Part shown: positions 3,031 to 33,209 of the stretch, piece after piece
Position numbering within the stretch: the first letter of the stretch is position 1
Layout: every line of letters starts with the position of its first letter
Assembly: GCA_026003075.1 (NCBI GenBank)
Contig: BPGO01000014.1
Location: 1-48,472 of the forward strand
DNA length: 48,472 nucleotides
Direction of reading: 5' to 3'
Source: Fimbriimonadales bacterium
Lineage (GTDB): Bacteria > Armatimonadota > Fimbriimonadia > Fimbriimonadales > GBS-DC
The notes under the pieces: model-generated
Database searches by the model: none
What the model was told of the DNA's origin: nothing
Seen by the model: the letters and a program-made list of their open reading frames with translations, nothing else
Position numbers and translations under genes: made by a program

Positions 3031-3046
3031 TTGGGTTCCCCCTATA

Positions 3047-3052: not shown

Positions 3053-3059
3053 GCATGGG

Positions 3060-3065: not shown

Positions 3066-3071
3066 CGCGAA

Positions 3072-3845
3072 GTGCTACGCATCGATGTGATTACGCTGTT
3101 CCCCGAGGTGATTGAAGCGGGTGTCGGTTATAGTATCGTTGGGCGCGCGTGCGCGTGGGGGCTGGTTCAAATCCGCGCCATTCAACTCCGCGACTTTGCG
3201 GAGGGCAAACACAAAAAAACGGACGACGAACCCTACGGCGGCGGCGCAGGCTTGGTGATGAAGCCCGAACCGATTTTCAAGGCGGTGGAGTTCTGCCTGC
3301 AGTCCGCGCCCGAGGCAGCCGACAAGCGCAAAACCCGTATCATTCTGCTCGAACCGCAGGGCAGGCTCTACACGCAATCGATGGCACAAGAGTTGGCACA
3401 ACAGGAGCATCTGGTGCTTATCTGCGGGCACTACGAAGGCGTGGACGCCCGCGTGCGCGAGCATTTAGCGACCGATGTGGTGAGCATCGGCGACTATGTG
3501 CTGACCGGCGGCGAACTGCCCGCACTGGTGATTGTCGATTCGGTAGTGCGCCTGCTCCCAGGCGCCATTCACTCCCCTGAGTCGCTGGAGCAGGATTCGT
3601 ATGCGGATGGGCTACTGGGCTATCCGCAGTACACGCGCCCCGAACAGTTTCGCGGGATGCGCGTGCCCAGCGTGCTCCTGTCGGGCAACCACGGCGCGAT
3701 TGCCCGCTGGCGACGCCAAGAGCAACTGCGCCTCACGCGTACCCTGCGCCCCGACCTGTTCGCAAAGGCTTGCTTACGCCAGGAAGACCTTCAACTGCTG
3801 AGCGAACTGCAAGCACACGACAAAGAGCGCCAGGGTGGGCTATAA
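3072..3845 (+). CDS. trmD: tRNA (guanine-37-N1)-methyltransferase TrmD
   Basis: A 257-residue SPOUT methyltransferase that methylates N1 of G37 in tRNAs reading codons starting with C or with G at the next position, preventing +1 frameshifts. The start MLRIDVITLFP matches the family N-terminus. The trefoil-knot SAM site is seen in LLEPQGR, LICGHYEGVDARV and IGDYVLTGGELPALV, and the catalytic-domain DDEPYGGGAGLVMK loop is intact. The start is GTG at 3072 without a ribosome site; TATAAT at 3060-3065 suggests a leaderless mRNA. It is not next to rimM, rpsP or rplS, its usual partners. The next gene has its own -10 box overlapping the trmD stop codon. Confidence 0.96.
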   Translation: MLRIDVITLFPEVIEAGVGYSIVGRACAWGLVQIRAIQLRDFAEGKHKKTDDEPYGGGAGLVMKPEPIFKAVEFCLQSAPEAADKRKTRIILLEPQGRLYTQSMAQELAQQEHLVLICGHYEGVDARVREHLATDVVSIGDYVLTGGELPALVIVDSVVRLLPGAIHSPESLEQDSYADGLLGYPQYTRPEQFRGMRVPSVLLSGNHGAIARWRRQEQLRLTRTLRPDLFAKACLRQEDLQLLSELQAHDKERQGGL

Positions 3846-3846
3846 T
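3841..3846 (+). promoter_or_regulatory. -10 box overlapping the trmD stop codon
   Basis: TATAAT spans the trmD stop codon (3843-3845) and lies 16 bases before the ATG of the metallophosphatase-cytochrome gene. An AAGGTG between them would serve as ribosome site on a leader of about ten bases. Confidence 0.45.
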
Positions 3847-3862
3847 TACTCAAGGTGAAACC

Positions 3863-5206: not shown

Positions 5207-5235
5207 GCCCGGTTCCTCAGCTCCTGGAGTTTTTT

Positions 5236-5263
5236 CCCTGCACGCAGTTTCCCGCGTGCAGGG
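5236..5263. terminator. Perfect 10-bp hairpin after the cytochrome fusion gene
   Basis: CCCTGCACGC (5236-5245) pairs perfectly with GCGTGCAGGG (5254-5263) across an eight-base loop. A T-run lies before the stem rather than after it, so this is not a textbook intrinsic terminator; it could still stop or stabilise the upstream transcript. Confidence 0.45.
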
Positions 5264-5319
5264 GGGCTTCGTCTCAAGTTTAGGAACCCCTCTCGCGCGA
5301 TTTTTGGAGCGCAAGAGCG

Positions 5320-5325
5320 TATAAT
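5320..5325 (+). promoter_or_regulatory. -10 box of the PIN-TRAM/ispDF/hpf operon
   Basis: TATAAT lies 16 bases upstream of ATG 5342, with a strong AGGAGG (5331-5336) between them. It likely drives the PIN-TRAM gene, ispDF and hpf, which overlap one another. Confidence 0.5.
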
Positions 5326-5341
5326 ATTACAGGAGGTTTTG

Positions 5342-6481
5342 ATGACGATCCATCGCCTGATGTACTGGCTGTTCCTTGCGGTCGGAATGGTGCTATTCGC
5401 GACCATCGGTTTTTTGCTTGCCGACCCGTTTTTGAAGGCGGTGGATAGCTGGCTTGCGGGCGCGCCCCCCATCTCGCCTTTGTGGACCCGCATCGGGCTA
5501 ACCACGGCCGGGCTGTTGATGGGGATTCTGGTCGCCAATCACAGTTTTCAGTTGCTTTCGCGCGTGGCACGCCACTTAGAAGAGGCGGAACCTGATGAGA
5601 AACTCGCGATAGGGTTGGGGCTGGTCTCGGCGGCGGTAATTACCTTCGCGCTCTATCCGCTTTTGTTCGCGATTGGCGGGGCGCGCTTGGGATGGGCGCT
5701 CACCTTGCTCGCGTTCGTGATTCTGGTGTACCTGAGTGTCGTGAGCTTTTTGAGCATGAAAGAGTATCTGCCCCTCACAGCGCAGATGGCGCGCCGCTCC
5801 AAGGGAGTCAAGGTGTTGGATACCAGTGTAATCATCGACGGGCGCATTCGCGACATCCTGCGCACGGGCTTTCTGGAAGGCAAACTCTATGTGCCTGGCT
5901 TCGTACTGGATGAACTGCAACACATCGCCGATTCGGAAGACCCGCTGCGCCGAGCGCGGGGGCGGCGCGGTCTCGATGTGCTGAAGCAGCTGCAGTCGGA
6001 CCTGGGCGAGAACTTGGAAGTGCGTGTCCACGACCGCCTTGCACCTCATATGGGCGATGAGGTGGACGCGCGCCTTGTGCGCCTCGCCAAAGCCATGCGC
6101 GCTGACATCGTGACCAACGACTACAACCTAAACCGCGTTGCGGAGCTTCAAGGCGTGCGCGTGCTGAATATCAACGAACTCGCGGAAGCCGTGCGTATCC
6201 ATGTGCTGCCTGGGGAAGAGTTGACCGTGGTGCCCATCCGCGAGGGTCAGGAACCCGACCAAGGGATTGCCTACCTTGAAGACGGCACGATGGTCGTGGT
6301 GGAGGGTGGGCGCGATTATCTCAACCAGGCCATCGACGTCGTGGTCACGAGCGTGCTGCAGTCGACGCGGGGCAAGATGCTGTTCGCGGAGCCGAAAACC
6401 GCTGACAGAAAAACCGAAGGAGGGATGGAATATCCTACACGCCCTTATTCTGGCGGCAGGAAGCGGCGTCCGATTCGGTAA
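5342..6481 (+). CDS. YacL-like membrane PIN-TRAM domain protein
   Basis: A 379-residue protein with four hydrophobic segments in the first 140 residues, then a PIN ribonuclease-like domain starting [15 protein letters not shown] (Asp160 as first metal ligand) with further acidic residues in [12 protein letters not shown] and DIVTNDYNL, then a TRAM RNA-binding domain ([11 protein letters not shown] to [12 protein letters not shown]). This is the architecture of Bacillus YacL, which also sits just upstream of ispD, so the neighbourhood supports the call. The RNA target is unknown. AGGAGG at 5331-5336 favours ATG 5342 over the in-frame TTG at 5339. The C-terminal tail of about 20 basic residues is encoded in another frame of ispD (overlap of about 50 bases). 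Confidence 0.88.
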
Positions 6482-7613
6482 AGGCGACAAGCTGTGGCAA
6501 TCGGTCTGCGGCGCGCCGGTGTGGCGCCACGCACTCTGGCGACTGCTAAGCCACCCTGCGGTCGATTCGGCGACCTTAGCGGTGGCGCCCGACGGAGCCG
6601 AGCCGTACGAAACCTACCTGCGCCAGAACCCTGCTCCCAAGCCGTTGCAAGTTGTCCCCTGTGGCGGCGCAACGCGCCAACAGACCGTCGCGAACGCGCT
6701 GGCACACTTACCGAAAGGCGTCGCGTTCGTCGCGGTTCACGATGCGGCGCGCCCACTGGTGAGCCACACGCTGTTGAACCGGCTTATCGATGCAGCCCAA
6801 CGCGACGGCGCTGCGATCCCAGCGCTCCCCGTGCAAGACACGCTCAAACGCGCGACCGACGGGCAACGGGTTTTGGAGACCGTGCCTCGCGCAGACCTCT
6901 ACCGGGTACAAACACCGCAGGTCTTTCGCGCCGATTGGCTCATTAATGCCCATCGCTCCGCTTGCGAGCAAGGCTTTGGAGATGCTACCGACGACGCGCA
7001 GCTGCTGGAACGCGCAGGCTACCCGGTCACACTGGTTCCCGGCGACCCGTTCAACATAAAACTTACCACCTCGGAAGACCTGCGCCTGTTGCGCCTCTCT
7101 GCGGGTGAGGGCACGGTGACCCGTACCGGAATCGGGTATGATATTCATCAGCTCACCGAAGGGCGCAAACTAATGCTGGGAGGCATAGAGATCGATTATC
7201 CACTTGGGTTGCAGGGACATTCCGACGCCGATGTCGTGGTGCATGCCATTTGCGACGCGCTGTTGGGCGCGGCGGCGCTGGGCGACATCGGGCAGCACTT
7301 CCCCAACAGCGACCCGCGCTGGAAAGACGCGCCCAGCTTGAGTCTCCTGGCGCAGGTACGCACGCTGTTGCACCAACACGGCTGGCAACCCCTGCATATC
7401 GACGCGATGACCATCGCCGAAGCACCCAAACTCGCGCCCTATATTCCGCACATGCGGACACGAATTGCCCAGACGTTGGGCTTACTCCCCGAACAGATTA
7501 GCGTCAAAGCGACCACGAACGAGGGGATGGACGCGGTCGGAGCGCGACGCGCCATCGCCTGCTATGCCGTCGCAACCATCTACCCCACAACAGGAGAGGC
7601 AAACGATGAGTAA
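6432..7613 (+). CDS. ispDF: Bifunctional IspD-IspF enzyme of the MEP isoprenoid pathway
   Basis: About 393 residues joining MEP cytidylyltransferase (IspD) and 2-C-methyl-D-erythritol 2,4-cyclodiphosphate synthase (IspF), steps three and five of the MEP pathway. IspD shows [25 protein letters not shown] and RVQTPQVF. IspF starts near residue 229 with [11 protein letters not shown], and has [19 protein letters not shown] with its zinc ligands and the FPNSDPRWK loop. The frame has no ATG, GTG or TTG between 6267 and the AAGSG motif that would give a normal N-terminus. An AAGGAGG at 6417-6423 points to ATC 6432, giving a start exactly before [14 protein letters not shown] 6402 is the alternative. 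The upstream ATG at 6425 is in the PIN-TRAM frame. The last eight bases overlap hpf. Confidence 0.9.
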
Positions 7614-16292: not shown

Positions 16293-17513
16293 ATGCCGTA
16301 CTTCAACTACACGATTCGAGACGCTAACGGGCAAACCCGTTCCGGCAAGGTCGAAGCGCCCAACGCCGAGGAACTCAAGAAACGCTTGCAGGCGGAAGGG
16401 CTGCAGGTCATCGAGATAACGGAAGACCGTAAAGCGCCGCGCGTGCCTGCAGGCGGCTATGGGCGTGTGAAGTTGAGCGACCTCGCCATCTTCGCGCGTC
16501 AGTTCTCCACCATGCTGGATGCGGGCGTGTCGCTCATTCGCTGCCTCGATGTGCTGCAGGCACAGACCAACAACGCCCGTTTGCGCAAAATCCTGGTCGA
16601 TCTCTCTGCCCGCGTCGAATCGGGCGAGAGCCTGTCGCGCTCGATGGCGCGTCACCCAAAAGCGTTTAGCCAACTCATCATCGGGCTCATCCGCGCAGGC
16701 GAGGTCGGCGGCGTGCTCGAAGAGTCGCTCCAGCGCATCGCAGCCTTCTTGGAGAAGGATGTGGAGCTGCGGCGTAAAATCCGCTCCGCACTCACTTACC
16801 CCGTGATCGTGTTGCTGGCGGCGATTGGAATCGTGATTTTCTTGGTGTCATGGCTCGTGCCGCAGTTCGCCAGCTTGTTCAAAGAGCTGGGCATCAAGGA
16901 GATGCCCGCACCCACGCAGTTCCTAATCGACCTCAGCGCGTTGTTCACCCAGCGCTGGTATGTGGTGATTATTGCGGTCGTTGCTGTCCTGGTGGCTTAC
17001 AAACTCTTTGTGAGTACGCGCGTGGGCAGGCGCGTCGCCGATCGAGTGAAACTGCGTATCCCCGTGTTCGGACCGCTGCACCACAAAATCGTGATGGCGC
17101 GCTTTAGCCGCACGATGGGCACACTGCTCGCTTCGGGAGTGCCTATCCTGCAGGCAATGGAGACCGTCGCTGGCGTGGTGGGCAATTCGGTCGTGGCGGA
17201 TGCGGTCATCGAGTCGCGCTCCCGTATTCGCGAGGGTGAAAAAATCGCCGACCCACTCCAGCGCAGCAAGATGTTCCCGCCGATGGTGGTGCATATGGTC
17301 AGTGTCGGCGAGGAGTCAGGCTCGCTGGATCACATGCTCAACAAAATCGCCGACTTCTACGAGAACGAGGTGGAGATGACCATCGCCAGTCTCACCGCCG
17401 CGATTGAGCCTGTGATGATCGTGCTGTTGGGCTTCATCGTCGGCTTCATCGTCATCTCGATGTTCCTGCCGATGATTGAGGTTATCTCGAACCTCAGCCA
17501 GAACCAGAGTTAA
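16293..17513 (+). CDS. pilC: Type IV pilus inner-membrane platform protein PilC
   Basis: A 406-residue GspF/PilC protein. Two T2SSF domains are visible: the first around FARQFSTMLDAGVSLIRCLDVLQ to GLIRAGEVGG, the second around FSRTMGTLLASGVPILQAMETVA to VSVGEESGSLDHML. Three membrane segments follow the family layout: two central (about 170-192 and 218-240) and one C-terminal (VMIVLLGFIVGFIVISMFLPM). It forms the platform on which PilB and PilT act. The stop codon overlaps the pilD ATG by one base (TAATG). Confidence 0.95.
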   Translation: MPYFNYTIRDANGQTRSGKVEAPNAEELKKRLQAEGLQVIEITEDRKAPRVPAGGYGRVKLSDLAIFARQFSTMLDAGVSLIRCLDVLQAQTNNARLRKILVDLSARVESGESLSRSMARHPKAFSQLIIGLIRAGEVGGVLEESLQRIAAFLEKDVELRRKIRSALTYPVIVLLAAIGIVIFLVSWLVPQFASLFKELGIKEMPAPTQFLIDLSALFTQRWYVVIIAVVAVLVAYKLFVSTRVGRRVADRVKLRIPVFGPLHHKIVMARFSRTMGTLLASGVPILQAMETVAGVVGNSVVADAVIESRSRIREGEKIADPLQRSKMFPPMVVHMVSVGEESGSLDHMLNKIADFYENEVEMTIASLTAAIEPVMIVLLGFIVGFIVISMFLPMIEVISNLSQNQS

Positions 17514-18547
17514 TGCTTCCTGCGTGGAGCATTGTGTTCGGAGTCGCGTTCGGGGCGGCGGTAGGCAGCTTCTTGAATGTGCTGATCCACCGCCTGCCCC
17601 GAAGTCTTTCGATAGCATTCCCCCCGTCGCACTGCCCGGCGTGTGGGCATCGGCTGGGCGTGCGCGACCTTGTGCCGCTCCTGAGTTATCTTTTTCAAGG
17701 CGGGAAGTGCCGCTATTGCCGTGCTGCCATCCCGATTCGCTACTTCTTGGTGGAGCTATGGAACGCAGCGCTCTGGGCATGGCTGTGGTATCAGTGGCTC
17801 ATCGTGGGCGAATCGCCGTTGCGGTTTGTGTTCTACGCGCTGGCAGCGTCGGTGCTAATTGCCATCTTTTTTATTGATCTCCAGCACTACATTATCCCCG
17901 ATGAGTTGAATGTTGCCTTGCTGATTTTGGGGTTGCTGCATGCGGGCTTGCTTAAAGGCGCGCCAACCGATTGGGATTGGACGGCGCTGGGGGTGTTGAA
18001 TCTGCGCAACGCGGCACTGGGGGCATTAATCGGCGCAGGGTTGTTCAGTCTGATCGCGATTCTGGGGCGCATCGGCTTCCGCAAGGATGCGATGGGGCAT
18101 GGCGATATCAAATTAGTGCGCGGGATGGGTGCGCTGTTGCTCACGCCGGGCATGCTGGTCGCTTTCGCCATCGCCATCGCAACCGGCGCGATTCTGGGCG
18201 GACTATGGACGCTCCTGCGTCGTCGTAAAGCGACGCCAACACCCGACGAACAGGCAAACGAAGAAGCGCCAATCCCCCCAGAGCCGATAGGGAGCCTGTT
18301 GCTTTCGTGCGCGTTATACACACTGTGGGTCGATGCGCTGATTACGCTGCTACCGCGCCGCGTGCAACAGCGCGTTTACGCCTCATTAGGGCAGCCCGAC
18401 GAGGAAATCGTCGACGAGTCGTTCGAAGAGACGCCCACCATGCTGCCGTTCGGACCGTTTCTGGCGGTCGGTGCGTTGGCGACGATGCTCTTCGGCAGCG
18501 CATTCGCAGGGTGGGTAAAAGCCTATTTGGAATGGGCAGGGTTTTAG
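17513..18547 (+). CDS. pilD: Prepilin leader peptidase/N-methyltransferase PilD
   Basis: A 344-residue membrane aspartic protease that cuts the leader of type IV prepilins and methylates the new N-terminus. The N-terminal GSFLNVLIHRLP and zinc-binding Cys pairs (Cys41/44 and Cys66/69) mark the methyltransferase part. The catalytic aspartates are Asp122 in FFIDLQHYIIPDELN and Asp198 in GHGDIKL. It is longer than usual because of an Arg/Pro/Glu-rich cytoplasmic loop (about 228-260) and a C-terminal extension of about 90 residues with a last membrane segment. Substrates in this window include the DUF1559 prepilin. The start overlaps the pilC stop by one base. Confidence 0.94.
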   Translation: MLPAWSIVFGVAFGAAVGSFLNVLIHRLPRSLSIAFPPSHCPACGHRLGVRDLVPLLSYLFQGGKCRYCRAAIPIRYFLVELWNAALWAWLWYQWLIVGESPLRFVFYALAASVLIAIFFIDLQHYIIPDELNVALLILGLLHAGLLKGAPTDWDWTALGVLNLRNAALGALIGAGLFSLIAILGRIGFRKDAMGHGDIKLVRGMGALLLTPGMLVAFAIAIATGAILGGLWTLLRRRKATPTPDEQANEEAPIPPEPIGSLLLSCALYTLWVDALITLLPRRVQQRVYASLGQPDEEIVDESFEETPTMLPFGPFLAVGALATMLFGSAFAGWVKAYLEWAGF

Positions 18548-20547: not shown

Positions 20548-21900
20548 ATGGACCGAACGCAACAGATGGGACCACTGGGCGACCCGAACCGCACGCAGGC
20601 GATGCAGATGCCTGTGTTAGACCCCACGCGCACACAGGCGATGCCGCAATTGGGAGGCGCGCCGCTACAGCCCTCGCTCAGTATGGAGGTGGTGTTGGGA
20701 AGGCGGTACGCGCTGGCGCAAAGCATCGCACGCGAAGGAATGCTCATCTCTATCCGTGCGGTGCAAACCGCTGCAGGACGCGCGCCGCTCAACCTCTGCC
20801 TCGTGTTAGACCGCAGCGGCTCGATGGAAGGGGCGCCGTTCGAATACGCCAAGCAAGCCTGCGCCTACATCGTGGATCAACTCACCGAGCAGGATGTGCT
20901 CTCCATCGTGACCTTCTCCGATGCGGTGGATGTGGTGATGCCCCCGCGCAAAATCGTGAACAAGCAGTTGGTGAAAGACCACATCATGCGCCTGACCGTC
21001 GGCGACACGACAAACATCTACGACGCGCTGGTGGTGGGCACACAGCAGATTACAAGCACACCGCTGCCAGGCTACCAGAGCCACCTGATTCTGCTTACTG
21101 ACGGCGAGCCAACCACGGGGATTAAAGATTTCGCGACCATCGTGGGCGCGGCGGCGAAAGCGAAAGAGTTCGGCTTCCATATCACTGCGCTCGGTTTCGG
21201 ACCCGACTACAACGAAGAACTGCTGGCAGGCATCGCGCGACGCAGCGGCGGCAAGTATTACTACATCGACCAGCCCCACAAAATCCCCGAAGTGTTCCAG
21301 CAGGAACTGGTGCGCCTGATGACAGTGGTGGCACGCAATCCCGTGCTGGAGATTCAACTGGCGCGCTGGGTACAGGTGCGCCAAGCGTTCGGGGGCGAGC
21401 TGAAACTGCAAGGGCGCACCGCGACCCTATCGCTGGTCGATGTGGAGCGCGGCAGTACGCTAAACCCCATCTTAGAGCTGGAGTTCCCGAACCACCCCGC
21501 CGGCATTTACCGTATTGCGAAAATCACCCTCCGTTGGGAAGACATCGTGACGGGGCGCACCGAAAGCGCAACTGCCGACGCCGTGCTGGAGTTCACCACC
21601 GACCCCGCACTCGCCAACCAACCGCAAGACCCACGCGTGGCGAACGAGCTACAGGTGGCGGTCGCCTCCCGTTCGCTGGAGAAGACGATTATGGGCATGC
21701 GCGCCCAGCAGTTAGACCGCACCCAAGCGTTGGCGGAGCTGCAGCGCACCCAAGCGATTTTGCTCAGTCAGGGGCGCACCCAAGAAGCGCAAGAGGTCAC
21801 CCAAGCCATCCGCGCCTTGCAAACCCAAGACACCAACACCGCCGAGAAAACCCTGATGGGTACCCTGGTCAACTTAGAACAGGGGAAGCGTGAGGGGTAA
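20548..21900 (+). CDS. VWA-domain protein with TQ-motif tails
   Basis: A 450-residue cytoplasmic-looking protein with a von Willebrand factor A domain at about 82-260. The MIDAS metal site is intact: DRSGS (Asp88, Ser90, Ser92), Thr154/155 in GDTTN, and Asp185 in LLTDGEPTTG. Around it lie unusual tails: the first 32 residues contain RTQQM, RTQAM and RTQAM, and residues about 390-435 contain RTQAL, RTQAI, RTQEA, VTQAI and QTQDT. Such repeated Thr-Gln sites could be kinase targets read by FHA domains; this is inference. A beta-sandwich region follows the VWA domain. It has its own AGGAGG, and runs convergent into nosL with only five bases between the stops. Confidence 0.8.
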   Translation: MDRTQQMGPLGDPNRTQAMQMPVLDPTRTQAMPQLGGAPLQPSLSMEVVLGRRYALAQSIAREGMLISIRAVQTAAGRAPLNLCLVLDRSGSMEGAPFEYAKQACAYIVDQLTEQDVLSIVTFSDAVDVVMPPRKIVNKQLVKDHIMRLTVGDTTNIYDALVVGTQQITSTPLPGYQSHLILLTDGEPTTGIKDFATIVGAAAKAKEFGFHITALGFGPDYNEELLAGIARRSGGKYYYIDQPHKIPEVFQQELVRLMTVVARNPVLEIQLARWVQVRQAFGGELKLQGRTATLSLVDVERGSTLNPILELEFPNHPAGIYRIAKITLRWEDIVTGRTESATADAVLEFTTDPALANQPQDPRVANELQVAVASRSLEKTIMGMRAQQLDRTQALAELQRTQAILLSQGRTQEAQEVTQAIRALQTQDTNTAEKTLMGTLVNLEQGKREG

Positions 21901-21905: not shown

Positions 21906-22364
21906 TCAACGCCCCCATTCTCGCTGTGCTTCGCCAAAGGTCAGCACCTTGCCGCCGCCATACTGCTTCAGCAATGTCTCGGCTCGCTCGCGGGTGCGCA
22001 CCGCTGCAGTGCGACTGCCCATCGGCGTCTGGAGCGATTCTGTTCGGGCATAGAGCGCCTGAACGCCGTCCAGCCACTGCTCCGGCTGGTCGTAATCCGC
22101 CACGAAGTAGCGCTTCGGCTGGATACGCCCCGACCGTGCATGGAGGAACATGCAGTTGAGATCATCGTACTTGTGATACTCGCCTTCTGTATCCTGAATG
22201 ACGCACGCGAATCGGGCATCGTTGATAAGCATCCCGCAGTTGGCACACGGATCCTCACCCAGTCGCACTTTCGGTAGCGTGTCGCTCGTGCGTTGGCAAG
22301 CGCCCAACACGAGCGCACAGAACCCTACGAAGCACCAGAGCAGGTATTGGCTGTTTTTTCTCAT
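21906..22364 (-). CDS. nosL: NosL copper chaperone lipoprotein
   Basis: A 152-residue NosL, an outer-face lipoprotein that binds Cu(I) and supplies it to NosDFY and NosZ. The lipobox LGAC has the acylated Cys23. The copper site EDPCANCGM (Cys40, Cys43, Met45) is followed by the NosL patterns HKYDDLNCMFLHAR, YFVADY and TPMGSRTAAVRTRERAETLLKQYGG. Start ATG 22364 overlaps the stop of the NosDFY fusion by four bases, so it is translationally coupled as the last gene of the operon. An open frame continues upstream to 23192 but is antisense noise over the fusion gene. Confidence 0.93.
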   Translation of the reverse strand: MRKNSQYLLWCFVGFCALVLGACQRTSDTLPKVRLGEDPCANCGMLINDARFACVIQDTEGEYHKYDDLNCMFLHARSGRIQPKRYFVADYDQPEQWLDGVQALYARTESLQTPMGSRTAAVRTRERAETLLKQYGGGKVLTFGEAQREWGR

Positions 22365-25300
22365 TCGATAGCCCCCTTCCGTTTGAAGTAAAGCAGCGCG
22401 AACAGGAAGGGCACGAGAATCCAGCCCAGCAACGCGCCGCCGCACACAAGCAACACGTGCTCTTCGAACAGGTCGCGTGCATATAACCCTGCCGCCCCGA
22501 ACACCTCCAGCGTGCCCTCCATCACTTGGATGACCGCAATTTTGAACACTTGGAGTGGGTTCAGAAGCGTTAGCCAGAGCAGGGTTTGCGCTTTGAGTTG
22601 GAGCGCGAGCGCCGTGCCAATCACGCCCAAGTCGCTGATGAAAGTGAGCGTGAGCCACAGCAAGATTGCCAGCCCGATAGCGGTGGAGGCACGACGGGCG
22701 AGCGCAGAGACCGCCATCCCCAACGCCATGCATGCCCAGCTGAGCATCAGCGTAAGCCCTGTTTGGAGCAAAAACTTGCCCAGCGGCACATCCGCGCCAT
22801 AGGCGTAGATGATGAGACCGCTCCCACCAAACCCCACCAGCACGGCGCCGCTGAGGACGCCGAGCGCGCCCAGAAACTTGCCCCACACAATTACGCTGGG
22901 CGTCACCGGGTGCGCGAGTAAGGTTTGCAGAGTCAGTTGGTCGCGTTCGCTTGCCAAACTCATCGCGCCGACGATAAGACCCATCAAGGGCACAATCAGC
23001 AGCGAGAGGTTCAGCAAGGTGGCGAAAGTACGCCCGAACCCGACCATCCCGCCCGACTCGCCAACGCCACCCAACCCGAACGCCGTCAGCAACACCGACA
23101 GCCCTGTGAAAATGCCCGTCAGCAGCAGCACCCAGCGATTGCGCCGCAAATCGCGTATCTCTTTGCTTGCGATTAGCTGTATCTGATGCCAAAACGGTTG
23201 CCGCTCTCCTTTACGCAACGCACTCGGTTCTGTCGCTGCTGGGGGGATTTCAGCGGCGAATCGCTCGGTTTCGGGAATCGCGCTCCAGTTCGGGGATTCT
23301 ATAGGCGCACGCCACTCGTAGTCCAGCACCTCCACACCGGCGTCCAGTAACAAGCGGATGGGCTCGATGCGCCGCGCTTCCAGATGGTGCACCACCAGCA
23401 GCCCGTCTGATACCTCGACCGTGTACCCTGCTTGCTGGAGACATCGTTGTGCCCGTTCCGCGTTGGCAGGCTCGACCATCAAGCGGAGGCTGCCCCGTTG
23501 TTGCCACAGGCGCGTGAACTGTTCCCCTGTGAGTTCCGCGGTCTTTTGACCGTTCTCCAAGACAATCACGCGATCTGCCAGTGCGCGCACCTCGGGGAAT
23601 TGATGGGTGCAAAAGAGGAGGGTTTTGCCCTCGGCTTTCAGTCGTCGCAAGAGTTCCAACCACTCGGCGCGTGCCGCAGCATCCAAATGAGCGGTCGGCT
23701 CGTCCAAGAGCAGTAGGGGCGGGTCGGACAGCAGCGCAATCACCAGCGCCAGTTTCTGCTTCAGCCCGCCCGAGAGTGCGAACACAGGTTTCTCGGCATG
23801 CTCGTGCAGTCCCCATTCGTGCAGCAGGCTCTCTGCACGCTCGGCGCTCACATGGCGCAGCTGCGCGTAGAATTGGGCAGTCTCGCGCACGCTGAGGTCA
23901 GGATGGAGATGGATGAGTTGCGGCACGTAGCCCACATAGTGCCGCGCCTGCACGCTCTGGCGCCGCACATCGATGCCCATCACCTGCACCTCCCCTTCAA
24001 AGCGTAGCAGTCCCAGCACACATCGCAGAATGGTGGTCTTGCCGGCTCCGTTTGCGCCCCAGAGGGCAATCGTCTCACCGGCACGCGCCACGAACGATAC
24101 ATCCTGCACGGCGCGGTTCCGCCCGAAACGGCGGCTCAGGTTCCGCACGGACAACACGATCGGAGGTGTTTTCTGAAGCCGAACTATACCTCTTGAAGTG
24201 CGTCGGCGTCGGATACGCGGTGCGGTTAGGCTGAGCGCGCCCAGTCCCAACGCGCTGAGCGACACCATCAGCGCCTTCGCAGCGCGTCCCTGAGTGGGTG
24301 GAGCATAGGGCAGGTCACCAGGGCGCATCCGTGGGGCGGGGTCGGTCGCCATCGGGCGCGGCGCAAAGAGCGGGAACAGACGCACCCCGAAATCCAACGC
24401 CTGCGCTGCTGGACTGTAATGAAGCACGCGCAGCGCACTGTTCCGCCCTGTCAAAAGGTCAAATACGCGCACCGCCCGATAGGGCACATCCCCATAGCCA
24501 TCCACATCCGCATCGTAGCCACTGTAGTCGCTCCAATAGTTGCCGTGCCACACCACACCCACGACCGAATCGGGACGCTCCATCGACAGGGTCTCATAGT
24601 TCTCGATGAACCGATTCTCCGCGAAGCGGTTCGGTTTTACCGCCAGCACGAGTTGCACCCCGATATCGTTGCGCACGAACCAATTGCCCTTATAGATACC
24701 TTCACCGCTGTCGATAAATAGCCCCACCCGATTGTTCGCAATCAGGTTGTTCACGATTGAGGCGCCGTCGATGTCCTTAATGCCCAGCCCCATGCCGCTC
24801 ACGCCGCGATTGCTCAGGATTTGGTTCCCTACCACTTGAACCTCCTTGCTATACATCAAGTAGATGCCCACCGAGTTCTCCTGAAGCAGGTTGTTTTCCA
24901 CGCGGCTATTGCTGCAATACATGAAGTGGATACCGTAGCGTGATTGGCGCACTTGATTACCGCGTACCACGATGCCTTCCGAGTACCAGAAGACTATATC
25001 CCGCCCACCGATGACCGTGTTGTTTTCGATTCGGGCGTGGTGGCTGTACCAGATTCGAATCTGGTCGCCGCGTCGTGCCACAGGAAGGTCATGCGAGCGG
25101 ATATGATTGTAGCGCACGAGGGTGCGATCGGCGCGGTCTAAGTGAATGCCGAAGAGGGCGTCCTCTATGTGGTTATGCTCCACGACGCAATCCGGGGCTT
25201 GTACGCGCACGGCACTGTCTTGATTGTTCAGTACGATACCGCTGTTGCGAATCACGAACCCGCGCAGCACGGTTTTGGGGGCGTTGAGGGTGATCACACT

Positions 25301-25537
25301 ACCCCGTCGCTCTCCGTCCAGCGTGGCGTTTTGCTCCCCAATCAGCGTAAGCGGTTTGTTCACCACAAAGTTGCCATGGTGGACGCCGCCGACTACGCGC
25401 ACGGTATCTCCGGGCGCGGCGCGCTCTAGAACTGCCTGCAATGGGTCGGTTGGATGCACGACCCACTCGGCTGCATGGGCCGCGACAAGGCTCAGCACGA
25501 GCCAAAATCCCGTCAAACCTCTCTGGTAAACAAACAT
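22361..25537 (-). CDS. NosD-NosF-NosY fusion: copper-maturation ABC complex in one polypeptide
   Basis: One uninterrupted 1058-residue frame carries three Nos assembly factors. Residues 1-23 are a signal peptide; about 25-375 form the NosD right-handed beta-helix with regular N-x-I/V-x-x-N turns and the terminal NYWSDYSGYDADVDGYGDVPY motif. A membrane span (about 421-439) ends in RIRRRR, placing the next part in the cytoplasm. Residues about 460-745 are the NosF ATPase: Walker A GANGAGKT (494-501), signature LSGGLKQK (588-595), Walker B LLLLDEPT (608-615), His645. Residues about 785-1058 are NosY with six predicted spans. This topology matches the separate proteins. NosDFY loads copper into NosZ. 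AAGGAGG precedes the ATG. Normally these are three genes. Confidence 0.93.
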   Translation of the reverse strand: MFVYQRGLTGFWLVLSLVAAHAAEWVVHPTDPLQAVLERAAPGDTVRVVGGVHHGNFVVNKPLTLIGEQNATLDGERRGSVITLNAPKTVLRGFVIRNSGIVLNNQDSAVRVQAPDCVVEHNHIEDALFGIHLDRADRTLVRYNHIRSHDLPVARRGDQIRIWYSHHARIENNTVIGGRDIVFWYSEGIVVRGNQVRQSRYGIHFMYCSNSRVENNLLQENSVGIYLMYSKEVQVVGNQILSNRGVSGMGLGIKDIDGASIVNNLIANNRVGLFIDSGEGIYKGNWFVRNDIGVQLVLAVKPNRFAENRFIENYETLSMERPDSVVGVVWHGNYWSDYSGYDADVDGYGDVPYRAVRVFDLLTGRNSALRVLHYSPAAQALDFGVRLFPLFAPRPMATDPAPRMRPGDLPYAPPTQGRAAKALMVSLSALGLGALSLTAPRIRRRRTSRGIVRLQKTPPIVLSVRNLSRRFGRNRAVQDVSFVARAGETIALWGANGAGKTTILRCVLGLLRFEGEVQVMGIDVRRQSVQARHYVGYVPQLIHLHPDLSVRETAQFYAQLRHVSAERAESLLHEWGLHEHAEKPVFALSGGLKQKLALVIALLSDPPLLLLDEPTAHLDAAARAEWLELLRRLKAEGKTLLFCTHQFPEVRALADRVIVLENGQKTAELTGEQFTRLWQQRGSLRLMVEPANAERAQRCLQQAGYTVEVSDGLLVVHHLEARRIEPIRLLLDAGVEVLDYEWRAPIESPNWSAIPETERFAAEIPPAATEPSALRKGERQPFWHQIQLIASKEIRDLRRNRWVLLLTGIFTGLSVLLTAFGLGGVGESGGMVGFGRTFATLLNLSLLIVPLMGLIVGAMSLASERDQLTLQTLLAHPVTPSVIVWGKFLGALGVLSGAVLVGFGGSGLIIYAYGADVPLGKFLLQTGLTLMLSWACMALGMAVSALARRASTAIGLAILLWLTLTFISDLGVIGTALALQLKAQTLLWLTLLNPLQVFKIAVIQVMEGTLEVFGAAGLYARDLFEEHVLLVCGGALLGWILVPFLFALLYFKRKGAIE

Positions 25538-25567
25538 TAGAATCCTCCTTCAATTACTCCGAGAATT

Positions 25568-26239
25568 TCAGCGTGCAGCAGCAATGGTGGGTCGGGTTGG
25601 TGTCGTGGGCGCCTCGGTAGCAGGTTCTACAGGAGACCTTTGCGACGCCCGTTGTTCGCACAGCGCACGCCGCCGCTGTGCGACAATCGCCAACACGCCC
25701 GCCAGCATGACCGCGAAGTAGCCCCATGTGGGCCACGACACCACCCCAAACTGCGCGATTTTGCCAGAACCGAAAATCGGGGGCACAAACGGCTTCACCA
25801 TCGCGCTCAGAGGCGCTTTGGGGTCTAAGTTCAGCCCGAACTCACGCAGCCAGTAGTACAGGTCAGCAGGGAACACCACGAGGACGGCAAGGGTTGGCAC
25901 AATCAGGAACCACGAGAACCACCGCGGACGCCTTACAAAGGCTGCCGTCGCTAATGCCAACGCGACCAGACTCAGCCCCGGCACAGCGATCTTGCGCTCG
26001 AAGGGCGCCGCCTCGTCCAAAGGACGCATCCCAATGTAGTGATTGAGACCGTCCACCTCACGCACATCGCCCCGTGCACCGACCACATGCACATAGACAT
26101 TTAAGCCTTTGGGATATTGCGGCGCGATAATATGGATTTTCCAATAGGGCAGGAAAATCGACGCAACCACCAGCAGCGACGCAAACCAGAGCATCGCTTT
26201 ATTCGCAAACTCTCCCGAGCAATGTTTGACAGATTTCAT
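25568..26239 (-). CDS. NosB-like integral membrane protein of the nos operon
   Basis: A 223-residue membrane protein with four spans (about 16-33, 87-104, 110-135, 163-185). A periplasmic loop after the first span holds PYWKIHIIAPQYPKGLNV and GLNHYIGMRPL, a combination I associate with clade II nos clusters, where a membrane protein called NosB lies between nosZ and nosD. The position here, nosZ then this gene then nosD, agrees. Its role in N2O reduction is not established; electron delivery or assembly is possible. The frame continues to 26302, but ATG 26239 has a GAGGTGG before it and gives a sensible N-terminus. The C-terminal 35 residues are Pro/Thr/Ala-rich. Confidence 0.65.
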   Translation of the reverse strand: MKSVKHCSGEFANKAMLWFASLLVVASIFLPYWKIHIIAPQYPKGLNVYVHVVGARGDVREVDGLNHYIGMRPLDEAAPFERKIAVPGLSLVALALATAAFVRRPRWFSWFLIVPTLAVLVVFPADLYYWLREFGLNLDPKAPLSAMVKPFVPPIFGSGKIAQFGVVSWPTWGYFAVMLAGVLAIVAQRRRALCEQRASQRSPVEPATEAPTTPTRPTIAAAR

Positions 26240-28421: not shown

Positions 28422-28462
28422 AAATGCCTCGCCCGCGTGCGGTCAACGGAGCCGAGGCATTT
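28422..28462. repeat. 10-bp inverted repeat upstream of nosZ
   Basis: AAATGCCTCG (28422-28431) and CGAGGCATTT (28453-28462) form a perfect inverted repeat with a 21-base loop. The 28313-28643 stretch between the divergent nosZ and PEP-CTERM genes also holds the nosZ promoter and the palindromic repeat next to this one, but no other gene. Confidence 0.55.
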
Positions 28463-28506
28463 CTCCCCTCGCCCACGGCGTGGGAGAGAGGCATGGGGGG
28501 GAGGGC
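28463..28506. repeat. REP-like palindromic repeat, copy A
   Basis: The sequence CTCGCCCACGGCGTGGGAG with flanking GGGGGGGAGGGCA is a degenerate copy of the element found three times between flgH and flgI. It has the same stem-loop core and the same G-rich flank, in the orientation of copy D. Confidence 0.6.
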
Positions 28507-28643
28507 ATTCAGACAAGCATCAACCACGCCAATTTGCCTGTCCGCTTTTCAATCATTTCCGAGTCCTTAATGAGTGGGAGCTGCGTAAGCGGCGCACCTT
28601 CACACAACGATGGAGGTATTTTGATGAAACGGATAGGCATGCG

Positions 28644-29690
28644 ATGGGCTTAACCGCGACTTTCAGCGCAGCAGTCATCGCCAGCGCGTTTGGACAAGCG
28701 TATCAGATGTTTTACGAGCAACGAGACGGATACGTGGCGGGTGTTACGAACCCTGCGAAATTTATCAACTTGGATACAAACAACAATGATGTCGCGAACG
28801 GCAGTTTTGTAACCCGTGGGCGCATTCAGTCGGATAGCCCCACCTCTGCTACTACCCTCGTTATTCGCACTCGGTTAGAGAATTTCACAGGCGGCGATGC
28901 CTTCGGACGGTTGGCGATAGGTTTCGGAAATGTGTCGCGCAATAGCAACTCTTCCTACGAACTGCCAAGCGATCGTGCGGGCAACCTCGCTCCAAGTAAT
29001 ACGGGATCCTTCGCTTATTTCGGTACCTGGGTGGGTTCAGGACACCAGTTCAGGATGAAAGTTTCAGGGCGTGGGCAAAGCGTGATCAGTGGTGGACAGG
29101 CGCGCTATGATGCTGAGATCCGCAACGCGGCGATGGTGAGCCTCGCTGGCGGTCCCAGCCCCTCTCAGCCCGACCTCACGCCGTACCTATGGGGTATTGA
29201 CAAAATCGATCCACTGGCTTTTCCGAGTATCGTGCTGAACTGGTCTTCGGGGGCTGTTACAGGCTCGCGTGGACTGATTAACTTCGTTCAGTTCGGCAAT
29301 ATCGCCTCGCCCCACTCGGATCGCCTTATTGTGCGCACCACGCTGAATATCACCCGAAACGGCAACGCGCACTATTCGGATGTAGATCAAGCGTCGGTGG
29401 ACTGGAACGCAGGCGACGGTACGGTTAACAAGAGCATTGGCGGCGTGGGCGACAGCTACACGCTGAACATCGCCAGCGACCCCAATGGCACCCAGTATGC
29501 AATTTCCATGCGTGTGCAGGTGCTGCACGAGGGGTATCGCGATAACTTCGGCAGCTTGGCGGGTACAGCGACCCTGTATGACCAGACCTTCAACCAAAAC
29601 TTCACCGTGCTCGTGCCTGAGCCAGCCAGTATGATTGCGCTGGGCACGGGGTTGGTCGGGCTGTGGGCGGCGCGCCGCCGCAAGCGGTAA
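28644..29690 (+). CDS. PEP-CTERM surface protein with disrupted signal-peptide start
   Basis: A 348-residue frame from ATG 28644 encoding an exported protein with the C-terminal PEP-CTERM sorting signal: VPEPASM, a hydrophobic helix (IALGTGLVGLWAA) and RRRKR. The body is beta-rich with no family I recognise. The best start is ATG 28624, with GGAGG seven bases or so upstream, but that frame reads MKRIGMRWA and stops at once. One missing T at about 28649-28651 would join it to LTATFSAAVIASAFGQA, giving a normal signal peptide. So either the gene carries a frameshift, the sequence has an error, or translation starts at 28644 with a signal lacking basic residues. No exosortase gene is nearby. Confidence 0.7.
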   Translation: MGLTATFSAAVIASAFGQAYQMFYEQRDGYVAGVTNPAKFINLDTNNNDVANGSFVTRGRIQSDSPTSATTLVIRTRLENFTGGDAFGRLAIGFGNVSRNSNSSYELPSDRAGNLAPSNTGSFAYFGTWVGSGHQFRMKVSGRGQSVISGGQARYDAEIRNAAMVSLAGGPSPSQPDLTPYLWGIDKIDPLAFPSIVLNWSSGAVTGSRGLINFVQFGNIASPHSDRLIVRTTLNITRNGNAHYSDVDQASVDWNAGDGTVNKSIGGVGDSYTLNIASDPNGTQYAISMRVQVLHEGYRDNFGSLAGTATLYDQTFNQNFTVLVPEPASMIALGTGLVGLWAARRRKR

Positions 29691-29751: not shown

Positions 29752-29819
29752 GTGTTAGCGTTTGCGTCCTAAGCGAACGAATCCCGGTAGACGCCTTTGG
29801 GGGTAGTTCGTTGGCATGG

Positions 29820-29825
29820 TACAAT
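29820..29825 (+). promoter_or_regulatory. -10 box of the AAA ATPase/DUF5682 pair
   Basis: TACAAT ends ten bases before ATG 29836, predicting a leader of a few bases only. It lies inside the upstream open frame (29797), which is why the later ATG is preferred. Confidence 0.45.
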
Positions 29826-29835
29826 ATCACTTGCT

Positions 29836-30918
29836 ATGCAAGCGGATGTGATTCGCGCCCCTGTGGAGGCACGTTGTCAAGAGGAGCTGCAACGACTACA
29901 AGCGTGGGATACCTATCCGAAGCCTGCCGGCTGGAACCTGTCGCCGCGTGCTGTGGAGAAGTTTATCTTGGGGGATGCGGACCTGAACATCAAGCCCAAA
30001 TATATCGGCGACCGAGACCGTATCCAAGTGGCGATTGCCACCCTTGCCAGCGACCGCGCCTTGCTGCTGGTGGGGGAGCCGGGCACCGCCAAGTCGTGGG
30101 TGTCGGAACACCTGAGCGCGGCGATTTGCAACGACTCGAAACTCACCATTCAGGGCACGGCAGGCACTACCGAAGACCAAATCAAATACTCGTGGAACTA
30201 TGCACTGCTGATGGCGGAAGGACCCAGCGACCGTTCGCTTGTGCCCAGCCCCATCCTGACCGCGATGCGCGAGGGACGCATCGCCCGCTTTGAGGAGATC
30301 ACCCGCTGCGTGGCGGAGGTGCAAGACGCGCTCATCTCGATCCTCTCGGAGAAAGCCATCGCTATCCCCGAACTGGAGCGCATTGAGTACGCCAAGCGTG
30401 GGTTCAACATCATCGCCACTGCCAACACGCGTGACCGCGGCGTGAACGAGATGTCCTCCGCACTCAAACGGCGATTCAACTTCGTGGAACTGCCCGTATT
30501 AAGCGACTTGCAGCAAGAGATGGCAGTCGTGCGCCAACGCACCCAAGAAATGCTCGCCGAACACGAACTGCAAACCGATATCTCCAACGAGCTGGTGGAA
30601 ACCTTAGTGACGGTATTCCAAGAATTGCGGCAAGGGCAGACTCTGGACGGCGAGCAGAAGGTGAAGACGCCTTCCACGGTGATGAGTACCGCCGAAGCGG
30701 TGAGCGTGCTGTTCGGGGGCTGCCTCCTGGCGACACACTTCGGCGAGGGCGTCGTGAACGGGCAGCATGTGATGCGCCTGCTGGTGGGGGCGATTGCCAA
30801 AGAAGACAAGTCCGACTTAGAGGCGTTGACCGAGTATCTGGAGACGGTCGCCAAGAAACGCGACGGGCGTGTATGGAAAGAACTGTACGAGACGCATCGC
30901 TGGCTCAAGTCGCTTTAA
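29836..30918 (+). CDS. MoxR-like AAA ATPase, partner of DUF5682
   Basis: A 360-residue AAA+ ATPase of the MoxR/RavA-like type. Walker A is GEPGTAKS (Gly80 to Ser87), Walker B lies in IARFEEITR, sensor 1 is IIATANTRDRG, and the Arg-rich ALKRRFNFVELP precedes the lid. MoxR proteins act as chaperones that remodel partners, often VWA proteins. This gene overlaps the DUF5682 gene by 46 bases. In other genomes these two families occur with VWA and SWIM-zinc-finger genes, but neither is beside them here. ATG 29836 is chosen because the -10 box at 29820 would cut off the earlier start. Confidence 0.85.
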   Translation: MQADVIRAPVEARCQEELQRLQAWDTYPKPAGWNLSPRAVEKFILGDADLNIKPKYIGDRDRIQVAIATLASDRALLLVGEPGTAKSWVSEHLSAAICNDSKLTIQGTAGTTEDQIKYSWNYALLMAEGPSDRSLVPSPILTAMREGRIARFEEITRCVAEVQDALISILSEKAIAIPELERIEYAKRGFNIIATANTRDRGVNEMSSALKRRFNFVELPVLSDLQQEMAVVRQRTQEMLAEHELQTDISNELVETLVTVFQELRQGQTLDGEQKVKTPSTVMSTAEAVSVLFGGCLLATHFGEGVVNGQHVMRLLVGAIAKEDKSDLEALTEYLETVAKKRDGRVWKELYETHRWLKSL

Positions 30919-33209
30919 GCACGGTGCGTGTACGCGGGGTGCATGTTGTGCCGGTGCGCCACCACTCGCCCGCGATTGCCCGTGCAACCGCAGCGCTCAT
31001 CCGTGCCGTGCGCCCGCGCCTGGTGCTGATTGAAGGACCCAGCGACGCGAATCATCTAATCGATGCGCTGACCGCGCCCGATGCGGTTGCGCCGCTGGCG
31101 CTCTTAGCCTACCGCCAACCGCAGGCGCGTCAAGCCTCTGCCGACCTCGCTCCCGAGGTGGTGTTCTATCCGTTCTGCGACTACTCGCCCGAGCTGGTGG
31201 CGTTGAGAACGGCGCGAGAACTCGGTATCGAGGCACGATTCTGCGACATTCCTGCCGCTGCAGTGTTGGAACATCGCGAAGCAACCGACGAAGCCCCATC
31301 TCCCACAGACGAGTCTCCTGCACCGTCGGCAAGCGCGGAGCCTGCGCCTCATGCGCCCGAATATCGTCTCAGCGTATACGACCGCGTCGCCCAGCGCATG
31401 GGGTTCGACGACAGCGAGGAATGGTGGGAGTGCCTCTTTGAGACCGCCCTGCGCGACCCCAACGAGTTATTGCTCCGCACTTTCGAGTGGGGGCAGTTGG
31501 TGATTAGCGATTTCGAGAGTAGCGACTACGATGCGCTGCGCAACGCCTATATGTGGAAGCGCGTGGAGGAGTCGGGCGTTCCGCCCGAGCAAATCGTGCT
31601 GGTGGTGGGCGCGGCGCATGCGGCGGCGTTCGCGCTGCCCGATTTCCGCGCCGAGCATGACCCAAACCATCCGCTGCTGCAGGCGCGCCCTGCCGACTTC
31701 GTGCTGATGCCCTACTCGTTCCCGCGCTTGTCGGAGCAGTTGGGCTACGGCGCGGGCAACCGGGCGCCGCAGTTCTATCAAGACGCTTGGGAGTTCGGCA
31801 GCCTGGAAGACGCGACGCTGGCGACCCTCACACGCCTCGTGAATTCGATGAAATTGCAGGGTGATGTGGCGTCCCACGCGGATGCCATCGAGGCGTTCCG
31901 CTTAGCGAAACAGTTAGCCGCTCTTCGGGGTAAACCGCAGCCGGGCTATCGCGAAACCATCGATGCGGCGATTGCCGCCTTTGGGCGTGGACAAGCCGAG
32001 CGCGTCGAGAAGCCGCTCAAACGCCTGATGATTGGCGAGCGCATCGGGCGCGCGCCGCAGTCCGAGGTTCAGCCCCCCGTACAAGCCGAGTTCTATCGCC
32101 TCGCGCACGAGCTGCGCATCCCCATCAAAGACGACCCAACCGACCTACGCCTGAACCTTGCCGAACCCCACGCCGTACAACAGTCGATCTTTCTACACAG
32201 GCTCGCCGTTGCGCAGATTCCGTTCGCCGAATTGCAATCGGGCGAGGCAGCAACCTATGGGCAAATGGCACGCCTCCGCGAGAAGTGGCGCCTGCAGTGG
32301 ACGCCGCTGACCGATGTCGCGTTGGCGGAAGCGTCGGTCTACGGCAACACCCTGCGCGAGGTCGCCACGCGCAAGATTGAGCCTCGATTGGCACAGCGCG
32401 ATACGCTCGTGCGGGTGAGCGCGGCGGCGCTGGAGGCGGTGCTGTGCGAGTTGCCCGAACTGTATGGCACGGCGTTGCAGGCGTTGGACGAGGCGTCCAT
32501 CCGCGACGCCGATTTCGCGAGCCTCGCACGGGCAGCCTACCAGATCGCCGGGCTGATCGAATACGGTGCGGCGCGGGCAGTGCAACAGGAGATGTTCGAA
32601 CCGTTGCTCCAGCGTGTCTACACGCGGGCGTGCCTACACCTGCTGTCGTCCAGCGATTGCGGCGAGGACGAAGCACGCGCCGTCGGCGAAGGCATGCAAC
32701 TGCTCCACGAACTCGCGCACAAGCTGCCCTATCTGGAGACGGGTTTGTGGATGGAGAACCTGCGCGAGACCGTGTTGAGCGAGCGGGCACAAGCGTATGT
32801 GGTGGGCATGGGACTGGGGCTGCTGGGCTTTATGCGCGCGCGAGACGAGGAACTCTGGCGCTGTGCCAAGCGGATGCTCTCACCCGCAACGCCTCCAGAA
32901 CAGGCGGCGCAGTTTCTGGAGGGCTTGCTCCACGCGCAAAGCGGCGCCGCCGCGCGCTCGCGCCCCTTCGTCCAGACGATGCACGAGTTCGTTATGCAGC
33001 TCCCCGACGCGCTGTTCCTCCAAGCCTTGCCGATGCTCCGCCGCGCGTTCAGTAAGCTCTCGAATCACGACATTCACTACCTGACGGACAACCTCTTGCG
33101 CATCATTGATGACGATGTCGCGGCGCAGGCAGAGGTGGAAGCCGAGCCGCTCCTCTCACGCGAGGAATTGGAACACATCTGGGCGCAGCTGGCGTGGATG
33201 GAATCGTAA
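30873..33209 (+). CDS. DUF5682 family protein
   Basis: A 778-residue protein matching the DUF5682 pattern: VHVVPVRHHSPA (His30, His31) and LIEGPSDA (Glu54) near the N-terminus, then VVGAAHAAAF near residue 247. These His/Glu positions recall erythromycin esterase-like and TraB-like folds, but activity is unknown. A Glu/Pro-rich insertion lies at about 135-160; the C-terminal half is helical and repeat-like. ATG 30873 lies within the ATPase gene and lacks a clear ribosome site; GTG 30924, just after the ATPase stop, is an alternative. Function is predicted only through the coupled MoxR-like ATPase. Confidence 0.8.
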   Translation: MERTVRDASLAQVALSTVRVRGVHVVPVRHHSPAIARATAALIRAVRPRLVLIEGPSDANHLIDALTAPDAVAPLALLAYRQPQARQASADLAPEVVFYPFCDYSPELVALRTARELGIEARFCDIPAAAVLEHREATDEAPSPTDESPAPSASAEPAPHAPEYRLSVYDRVAQRMGFDDSEEWWECLFETALRDPNELLLRTFEWGQLVISDFESSDYDALRNAYMWKRVEESGVPPEQIVLVVGAAHAAAFALPDFRAEHDPNHPLLQARPADFVLMPYSFPRLSEQLGYGAGNRAPQFYQDAWEFGSLEDATLATLTRLVNSMKLQGDVASHADAIEAFRLAKQLAALRGKPQPGYRETIDAAIAAFGRGQAERVEKPLKRLMIGERIGRAPQSEVQPPVQAEFYRLAHELRIPIKDDPTDLRLNLAEPHAVQQSIFLHRLAVAQIPFAELQSGEAATYGQMARLREKWRLQWTPLTDVALAEASVYGNTLREVATRKIEPRLAQRDTLVRVSAAALEAVLCELPELYGTALQALDEASIRDADFASLARAAYQIAGLIEYGAARAVQQEMFEPLLQRVYTRACLHLLSSSDCGEDEARAVGEGMQLLHELAHKLPYLETGLWMENLRETVLSERAQAYVVGMGLGLLGFMRARDEELWRCAKRMLSPATPPEQAAQFLEGLLHAQSGAAARSRPFVQTMHEFVMQLPDALFLQALPMLRRAFSKLSNHDIHYLTDNLLRIIDDDVAAQAEVEAEPLLSREELEHIWAQLAWMES

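Follow-up and report, generated by a model that had tools for sequence, protein, structure and literature searches.

A nitrous oxide reductase gene cluster of a Fimbriimonadales bacterium encodes NosD, NosF and NosY as one polypeptide

The copper-maturation factors NosD, NosF and NosY of nitrous oxide (N2O) reductase are encoded as a single 1058-residue protein in a Fimbriimonadales bacterium (assembly GCA_026003075.1). The fused gene was analysed in a stretch of 48,472 nucleotides (contig BPGO01000014.1, positions 1 to 48,472 of the forward strand), referred to as the window. It is linked to both nosZ and nosL, as expected of NosDFY (Table 1). As described in PMC7558416 and PMC11573801, formation of CuZ needs NosFY and NosD, and NosDFY binds apo-N2O reductase. 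The single chain probably pairs into a homodimer that carries two tethered NosD arms and acts, in the role of NosDFY, as copper-maturation transporter for the N2O reductase encoded next to it.

The fused frame runs unbroken on the minus strand from an ATG that is preceded by a Shine-Dalgarno match; the plus strand over the same stretch contains many stops in frame 1. The initial annotation had placed NosD, NosF and NosY in this one frame, and the list of open reading frames (ORFs) together with the domain profiles bears this out. NosD is matched by TIGR04247 at residues 33–405 (396.9 bits; cut-off 300), and the ABC ATPase domain PF00005 (residues 478–616) and the permease domain PF12679 (residues 789–1055) score far above their cut-offs. 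The NosD module has a right-handed beta-helix resembling that of the solved NosD, and the C-terminal module matches NosY in both sequence and fold, so that the proposed NosY membrane domain holds. The ATPase is complete, as had been claimed: Walker A (GANGAGKTT, 494–502), the signature (LSGG, 588–591), Walker B with its glutamate (LLLLDE, 608–613) and the H-loop histidine (H645), the marks of a NosF-type ABC ATPase, are all present. NosF of PDB entry 7o0y matches the window NosF at E 2.7e-36, and other ABC chains score higher. Between NosD and NosF, hydropathy indicates a hydrophobic span at residues 419–437, which is a helix in the predicted model; because TAPRIRRRRTSRGIVRLQK follows directly, the span has the basic cytoplasmic edge described in the initial annotation. 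The domain order also suits the topology proposed there (outside, inside, membrane), the topology itself being a prediction.

For comparison we used 7o0y and the related NosDFY entries (with NosL, 7osf/7znq; with NosZ, 7qba), which we take to be from Pseudomonas stutzeri. The deposited entries contain 16 NosD chains in 16 entries, 30 NosF chains in 15 and 34 NosY chains in 17, and thus a NosD:NosF:NosY ratio of 1:2:2, in agreement with the one NosD per NosF2Y2 given for the solved complex in the initial annotation. The Pseudomonas stutzeri complex consists of three separate chains, whereas the window encodes one. The match to the solved NosD ends at its residue 421 of 436, which leaves too little for a span of the type found in the window. 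The highest-ranked Foldseek matches were ABCG half-transporters, whose single chain runs from an ATPase into a permease and functions as a dimer. This order resembles that of NosF-NosY in the window, but the ABCG proteins are eukaryotic, have no NosD module and show 16–20% identity in the Foldseek rows. Published joins of nos accessory proteins are the NosB-NosL and NosB-NosC2 fusions of clade II clusters (PMC9697520 section 13; PMC11409646), and neither is reported in those sections to hold NosD, NosF or NosY. No description of a NosD-NosF, NosF-NosY or NosB-NosD fusion was found in the full-text literature searched, outside which most subscription journals lie. The earlier statement that no example had been described therefore stands for that literature, but not for the public databases, in which fused proteins are already present.

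Relatives were collected by a protein database search that takes only proteins of 0.55–1.75 times the query length. It gave 1496 matches, of which 120 were listed, and all 120 were classified with the window's own modules (abbreviated by their last letters, with B for the NosB-type module). Counts of the listed forms are not frequencies, because the length rule hides separate NosD proteins; prevalence was rejected as a use of this search, since a D-F join in 119 of the 120 says nothing of frequency, and counts were taken from genome searches. The forms comprised D-F (41, plus 3 with a split NosD match), B-D-F (36), B-B-D-F (11), B-D-F-Y (20, including P0024, which breaks off inside NosY, and additionally P0027, whose NosD is damaged, hence 21), D-F-Y as in the window (7) and a single F-Y protein without NosD (P0030, 688 aa). 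As to database spread, 28 listed proteins have the D-F-Y frame (7 D-F-Y and 21 B-D-F-Y) at 49–95% identity; P0024 and P0027 are incomplete, and some duplicate genome loci, with no difference in NosD and NosF between P0007 and L028, P0008 and L010, or P0011 and L011. In the database the fused relatives are assigned to Fimbriimonadales (of the same genus as the window), Armatimonadetes bacterium DC, bacterium HR15 and Armatimonadota, and the proteins, where named, are mostly called NosD or ABC transporter. The same NosD-span-NosF join occurs in D-F and B-D-F proteins of Poribacteria, Planctomycetes, Chloroflexota, Omnitrophica and others (by database names), with NosY in a separate frame in L029, L030, L031, L034, L038 and L059, unlike in the window. 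NosD-NosF joins are widespread, and in relatives the NosB-type neighbour is fused in the same chain; both points were missed in the initial annotation.

Within the window's phylum, a NosD match at E 1e-40 or better was obtained in 9 of 291 genomes, 8 of them over the cut-off (L045 of G201, a NosD relative below the cut-off, was left out of the classification). The NosD-bearing genomes of the window's family have either D-F-Y (G000, G010) or B-D-F-Y (G014, G016, G017), and the other three genomes over the cut-off have B-D-F (G121, G122) or D-F (G219). Close relatives with three separate genes at the locus would have spoken against the fusion; in the family, nosZ is present in 5 of 18 genomes, and the same five carry the fused chain. 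NosD and NosY are each matched once per genome, in both cases inside the fused frame, and no second NosD gene or separate NosY gene was found in these five genomes.

The loci in which NosD, NosF and NosY are separate genes all came from other phyla, and most of them are similar in gene order. In the nos loci of the genome contigs and of the window's phylum (some loci are the same places), the order by position is Z-B-D-F-Y-L in 15 of 15 loci as far as the contigs reach, with all six nos modules visible in 11; the nearest relatives with separate genes are collinear in Z-B-D-F-Y. All nos genes are separate in L033 (Omnitrophota) and L035 (Thermoanaerobaculia), and the joins are B-D in L032 (Omnitrophota), D-F in L034 (WOR-3), B-D-F in L031 (Armatimonadetes) and B-B-D-F in L029 (Poribacteria); L036 gave no nos module. 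NosD that is not joined to NosF (L032, L033, L035) has a C-terminal membrane span of its own, so that NosF comes to lie on the inner face of the membrane once a single stop is lost. L035 belongs to a second phylum, in which NosD was found at E 1e-60 or better in 32 of 297 genomes, 20 of which were classified: NosD is joined to NosF in one locus, stands behind a NosR-like protein in 4 and is not joined to NosF in 15, and a simple hydropathy rule detects the C-terminal span in 11 of these 15. A NosF-NosY join was found in none of the 20 loci. Z-B-D-F-Y-L was rejected as a general order, as only 3 of the 20 have it; the others show Z-B-D-F-L-Y (8), Z-D-F-Y with the NosR-like protein in place of NosB (4), Z-B-D-F-L (2), Z-B-D-F (2) and Z-D-F-L-Y-B (1). 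Where nosL lies between nosF and nosY (L065, L067, L068, L070, L071, L074, L076, L077), a NosF-NosY join could not arise by simple stop loss. The NosD behind a NosR-like protein in L062, L063, L066 and L069 shares a stop-free frame with it (1108–1156 codons, stop to stop), so that, alongside the B-D joins, either a NosB or a NosR-like front joins to NosD in different lineages. The NosR-like part of L063, the only one searched with Pfam, has FMN-binding and 4Fe-4S domains, and by eye no ribosome-binding site is evident upstream of candidate NosD starts in the four loci.

Two trees were calculated: one with FastTree from 133 D+F rows (P0027, P0029, P0099, P0100 and P0102 were dropped as too short), in which long branches meet among the outgroup rows, and one with IQ-TREE from 38 D+F+Y rows, i.e. 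27 fused chains (the window and P0001–P0028 minus P0024 and P0027) and 11 outgroup rows chosen by us. All F-Y joins fall in one clade in both trees (100/99 in IQ-TREE), and the nearest outgroup of that clade is formed by B-D-F chains. The trees nest the window's D-F-Y group (100/100) within the B-D-F-Y rows. Support is weak (82/75) for the branch that connects this group with P0008/P0013. A tree constrained to keep all 19 B-D-F-Y rows in one group was rejected (AU p 5e-9; log-likelihood 86.6 lower). Because it sits inside the four-part clade, the three-part form of the window probably derives from a four-part one in which NosB was joined and then split off, a third point missed in the initial annotation. 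The simplest account of these sequences would be a stepwise joining, D-F to B-D-F to B-D-F-Y, after which NosB became separate again through one split in the lineage of the window. D-F rows also occur inside the B-D-F and B-B-D-F groups, which means that NosB joins and splits happened more than once. L030 (about 1287–7125), within the B-B-D-F clade of the 133-row tree, has a shorter separate NosB frame and a D-F frame; its NosZ and NosY frames stop early, and the locus is possibly decayed or wrongly assembled.

The separate gene between nosZ and the fusion encodes a 223-residue protein without a Pfam or NCBIfam family match, which we assign to the NosB type because of its location between nosZ and nosD and its exact LNHYIGM. 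In the published protein, the stretches LNHYIGM and YGHN lie 68 residues apart (PMC9697520 section 13). All 120 listed separate homologues, among which the window protein is counted, have LNHYIGM, as do 66 of 68 fused ones. At the place of YGHN the window protein has FGLN, 69 residues after LNHYIGM; over 67 sequences the G of this site is invariant and the N nearly so. The N-terminus of P0008, a four-part fusion, shares 75% identity with the window protein over 194 aa. The protein is polytopic, with four long helices in the predicted model; its predicted fold is claudin/TARP-like (four membrane helices and a small beta sheet), with moderate scores only. A tandem NosB module is seen inside the fused chains L029, P0031, P0048 and nine other B-B-D-F proteins, P0060 and L029 being poribacterial by name, and a duplicated NosB also occurs as a separate protein of 359–379 aa (P0132, P0133; P0132 is from Dehalococcoidia by name). 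Three separate NosB-type proteins, P0147, P0197 and P0207, are called 'copper chaperone NosL' in the database, a name that is likely wrong; P0147 has no NosL domain in Pfam.

NosB is essential in Wolinella succinogenes, its exact function being described as yet to be elucidated (PMC9697520 section 13; PMC11102522), and PMC13274427 lists it among the proteins for NosZ maturation and function. Because relatives place NosB ahead of NosD in the same chain, it likely belongs to the copper-loading machine and does not serve electron transport alone. It is quite possible, although we lean the other way, that NosB serves electron transport to NosZ and that its join with NosD is a by-product of gene order. 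Electron transport is one of the published guesses (PMC9697520 section 13; NosBC2 in PMC11539149), and the reported NosB-NosC2 fusions (PMC11409646) point to it; moreover, nosB adjoins nosD in most loci and is a separate gene in the window itself. Against this, NosB is joined to NosD in 68 of the 120 listed proteins, none of these 68 chains has a CxxCH haem-c motif, and a join with a copper-binding protein, NosB-NosL, has also been reported (PMC9697520 section 13).

Most likely, two copies of the single chain pair and work together, each with its NosD as a tethered arm; a fused homodimer has two NosD unless the chain is cut. NosD would lie outside, the span would cross from outside to inside, NosF would be inside and NosY in the membrane. 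The NosF-NosY half would dimerise into an ATP-driven core in the fashion of ABCG half-transporters. Alignment of NosD with the solved chain extends to residue 413 and the span starts at 419, so that, with a linker of 22 residues behind it, NosD would form an arm at the membrane surface: each NosD would be held at the membrane a few residues past its last ordered part and tied to NosF through the flexible, basic linker of ∼22 residues, which we estimate to reach about 75 Å when stretched. One NosD, or both in turn, would dock on the NosY dimer, exchange copper with NosL and hand it to apo-NosZ. The tether would replace the binding equilibrium between NosD and NosFY and fix synthesis at 1:1:1. 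Such a ratio would follow from the sequence, because there is no good internal start at the window junctions and no second NosD or NosY gene was found in the five genomes. Copper delivery may also become processive, as suggested in the initial annotation.

Several observations weigh against the homodimer. The predicted monomer model has a pTM of 0.69 with low-confidence linkers (439–457 and 768–778), and it gives no position of NosD on NosY. A protease other than signal peptidase could cut between NosD and NosF. Finally, an ATG precedes NosF by a few codons in L028, L010, L011 and L012 (Shine-Dalgarno matches of 4, 3, 3 and 0 nt), which makes a start of NosF on its own harder to dismiss in these relatives than in the window.

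We regard it as unlikely that the fused product is a precursor, processed between NosD and NosF or within the linker to give a working complex with one NosD per NosF2Y2 as in the solved entries. The linkers are variable as well as poorly predicted, which would fit cleavage. On the other hand, signal peptidase would not cut at an outside-to-inside span, and the span between NosD and NosF is predicted to have this orientation. The spacers keep limited lengths (55–78 residues for D-F and 105–132 for F-Y in 26 of 28 chains, P0001–P0028), and it can be argued that the joining of operon genes, seen in several lineages, would offer little benefit for a chain that is invariably cut. A strict A-x-A after the span is absent from all 29 chains (8 D-F-Y including the window, 21 B-D-F-Y); the corresponding numbers in the other forms are 7 of 42 D-F, 5 of 36 B-D-F and 1 of 11 B-B-D-F. 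With this span as a control, the motif was also counted behind the signal stretch of NosD, with regard to release of NosB from the four-part chain by signal peptidase, and occurs there in only 4 of 21 B-D-F-Y, 5 of 8 D-F-Y (including the window), 20 of 42 D-F, 10 of 36 B-D-F and 3 of 11 B-B-D-F proteins, numbers that speak neither for nor against such a release. These counts cover the 42 of 44 D-F proteins (3 with split NosD included) with 20 or more residues ahead of NosD; P0027 was placed in B-D-F-Y, and P0030 has no NosD.

That a second, internal start makes extra NosF-NosY and restores 1:2:2 is very improbable, judging from a scan of the window, L028, L010, L011 and L012. In-frame ATG, GTG or TTG codons are present at both junctions, and the ATGs ahead of NosF in the four relatives could support such a start, or could be remnants of the start of NosF. 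The window lacks an ATG there and offers just GTG/TTG codons (461, 462, 464) with matches of 0–3 nt, and no start with an anti-Shine-Dalgarno match of at least 5 nt was found at either window junction, as against 7 nt at the true start; stronger internal matches (223, 235, 288, 519/520, 524, 884, 1012) fall within domains, and starts there would yield truncated modules. An artefact of assembly or gene calling that hides separate genes was rejected even though the window genome is a draft (84% complete, 18 contigs), as D-F-Y forms one open frame in four other family genomes, one of them in a single contig (G010, with the same match as L028), and in the 28 database proteins, and as the linkers differ from those of L028 by many substitutions with the frame kept. 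The modules are 76–78% identical to L028 in amino acids, with the differences mostly at third codon positions; the linkers are 23–50% identical, and that between NosD and NosF aligns without gaps.

The homodimer may be extended to the four-part chains, a proposal that we consider doubtful at present: NosB-NosD-NosF-NosY would be the whole clade II copper-insertion machine in one chain, with NosB (of predicted claudin-like fold) as a fourth NosDFY subunit, in a symmetric dimer whose two NosD arms load NosZ in turn. If so, the one-NosD stoichiometry of Pseudomonas would be a special case, because in many phyla NosD and NosF form one covalent chain.

Coordinates of the fused gene, its modules and the adjacent nos genes are collected in Table 1. 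The NosB-type gene may alternatively start at an upstream GTG at 26302 (244 aa; ORF list), and its stop is separated from the fusion start by 30 bases; the start of nosL overlaps the fusion stop by 4 nt. NosZ scores below the cut-off of the TAT-type profile TIGR04244. A PEP-CTERM protein gene (28437–29690) is divergent from nosZ, and genes of a type II secretion F protein and a type IV leader peptidase lie on the plus strand beyond the end of nosL (16293–18547). On one side of the nos cluster lies a VWA-domain protein (20548–21900), and on the other side (29797–33209) are an AAA_5 ATPase and a DUF5682 protein; our impression, and only that, is that the nos genes interrupt a single MoxR/VWA-type system to which these belong.

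Table 1. Positions in the window of the fused gene, the parts of its product and the neighbouring nos genes.
Feature	Position	Strand	Evidence or remark
Fused nosD-nosF-nosY gene	22361..25537	-	ORF, 1058 codons + stop, ATG; domain profiles
Shine-Dalgarno AAGGAGG	25544..25550	-	7-nt match, spacing 6 nt ahead of ATG
Predicted Sec signal peptide, residues 1–23, A-x-A motif (AAHA)	25469..25537	-	Hydrophobic stretch then A-x-A
NosD beta-helix module, residues 24–405	24323..25468	-	
Membrane span, residues 419–437	24227..24283	-	Hydropathy and model helix
Basic low-confidence linker, residues 438–459	24161..24226	-	Same length as in L028, 23% identity
NosF ATPase module, residues 460–743	23309..24160	-	PF00005 and motifs
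NosF-NosY linker, residues 744–781	23195..23308	-	Five residues longer in L028
NosY permease module, residues 782–1058	22364..23194	-	
nosZ, Sec-type clade II nitrous oxide reductase, 663 aa	26321..28312	-	TIGR04246, 853 bits (cut-off 625)
Separate NosB-type gene, 223 aa from ATG	25568..26239	-	LNHYIGM; position between nosZ and fusion
nosL, 152 aa	21906..22364	-	PF05573, 43.5 bits (cut-off 24), scored on 21906–22358

Overall, this bacterium and its nearest N2O-reducing relatives encode as one long protein three factors that load copper into the enzyme breaking down the greenhouse gas nitrous oxide. The graded series of joins within one gene order is a clear case of an operon turning into a multidomain protein, with one likely later split. 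The four-part NosB-NosD-NosF-NosY chain argues for a role of NosB in copper maturation, a question open in print. The single-chain form offers one gene to express, tag and solve, and it makes the stoichiometry testable, i.e. whether there is one NosD or two per transporter.

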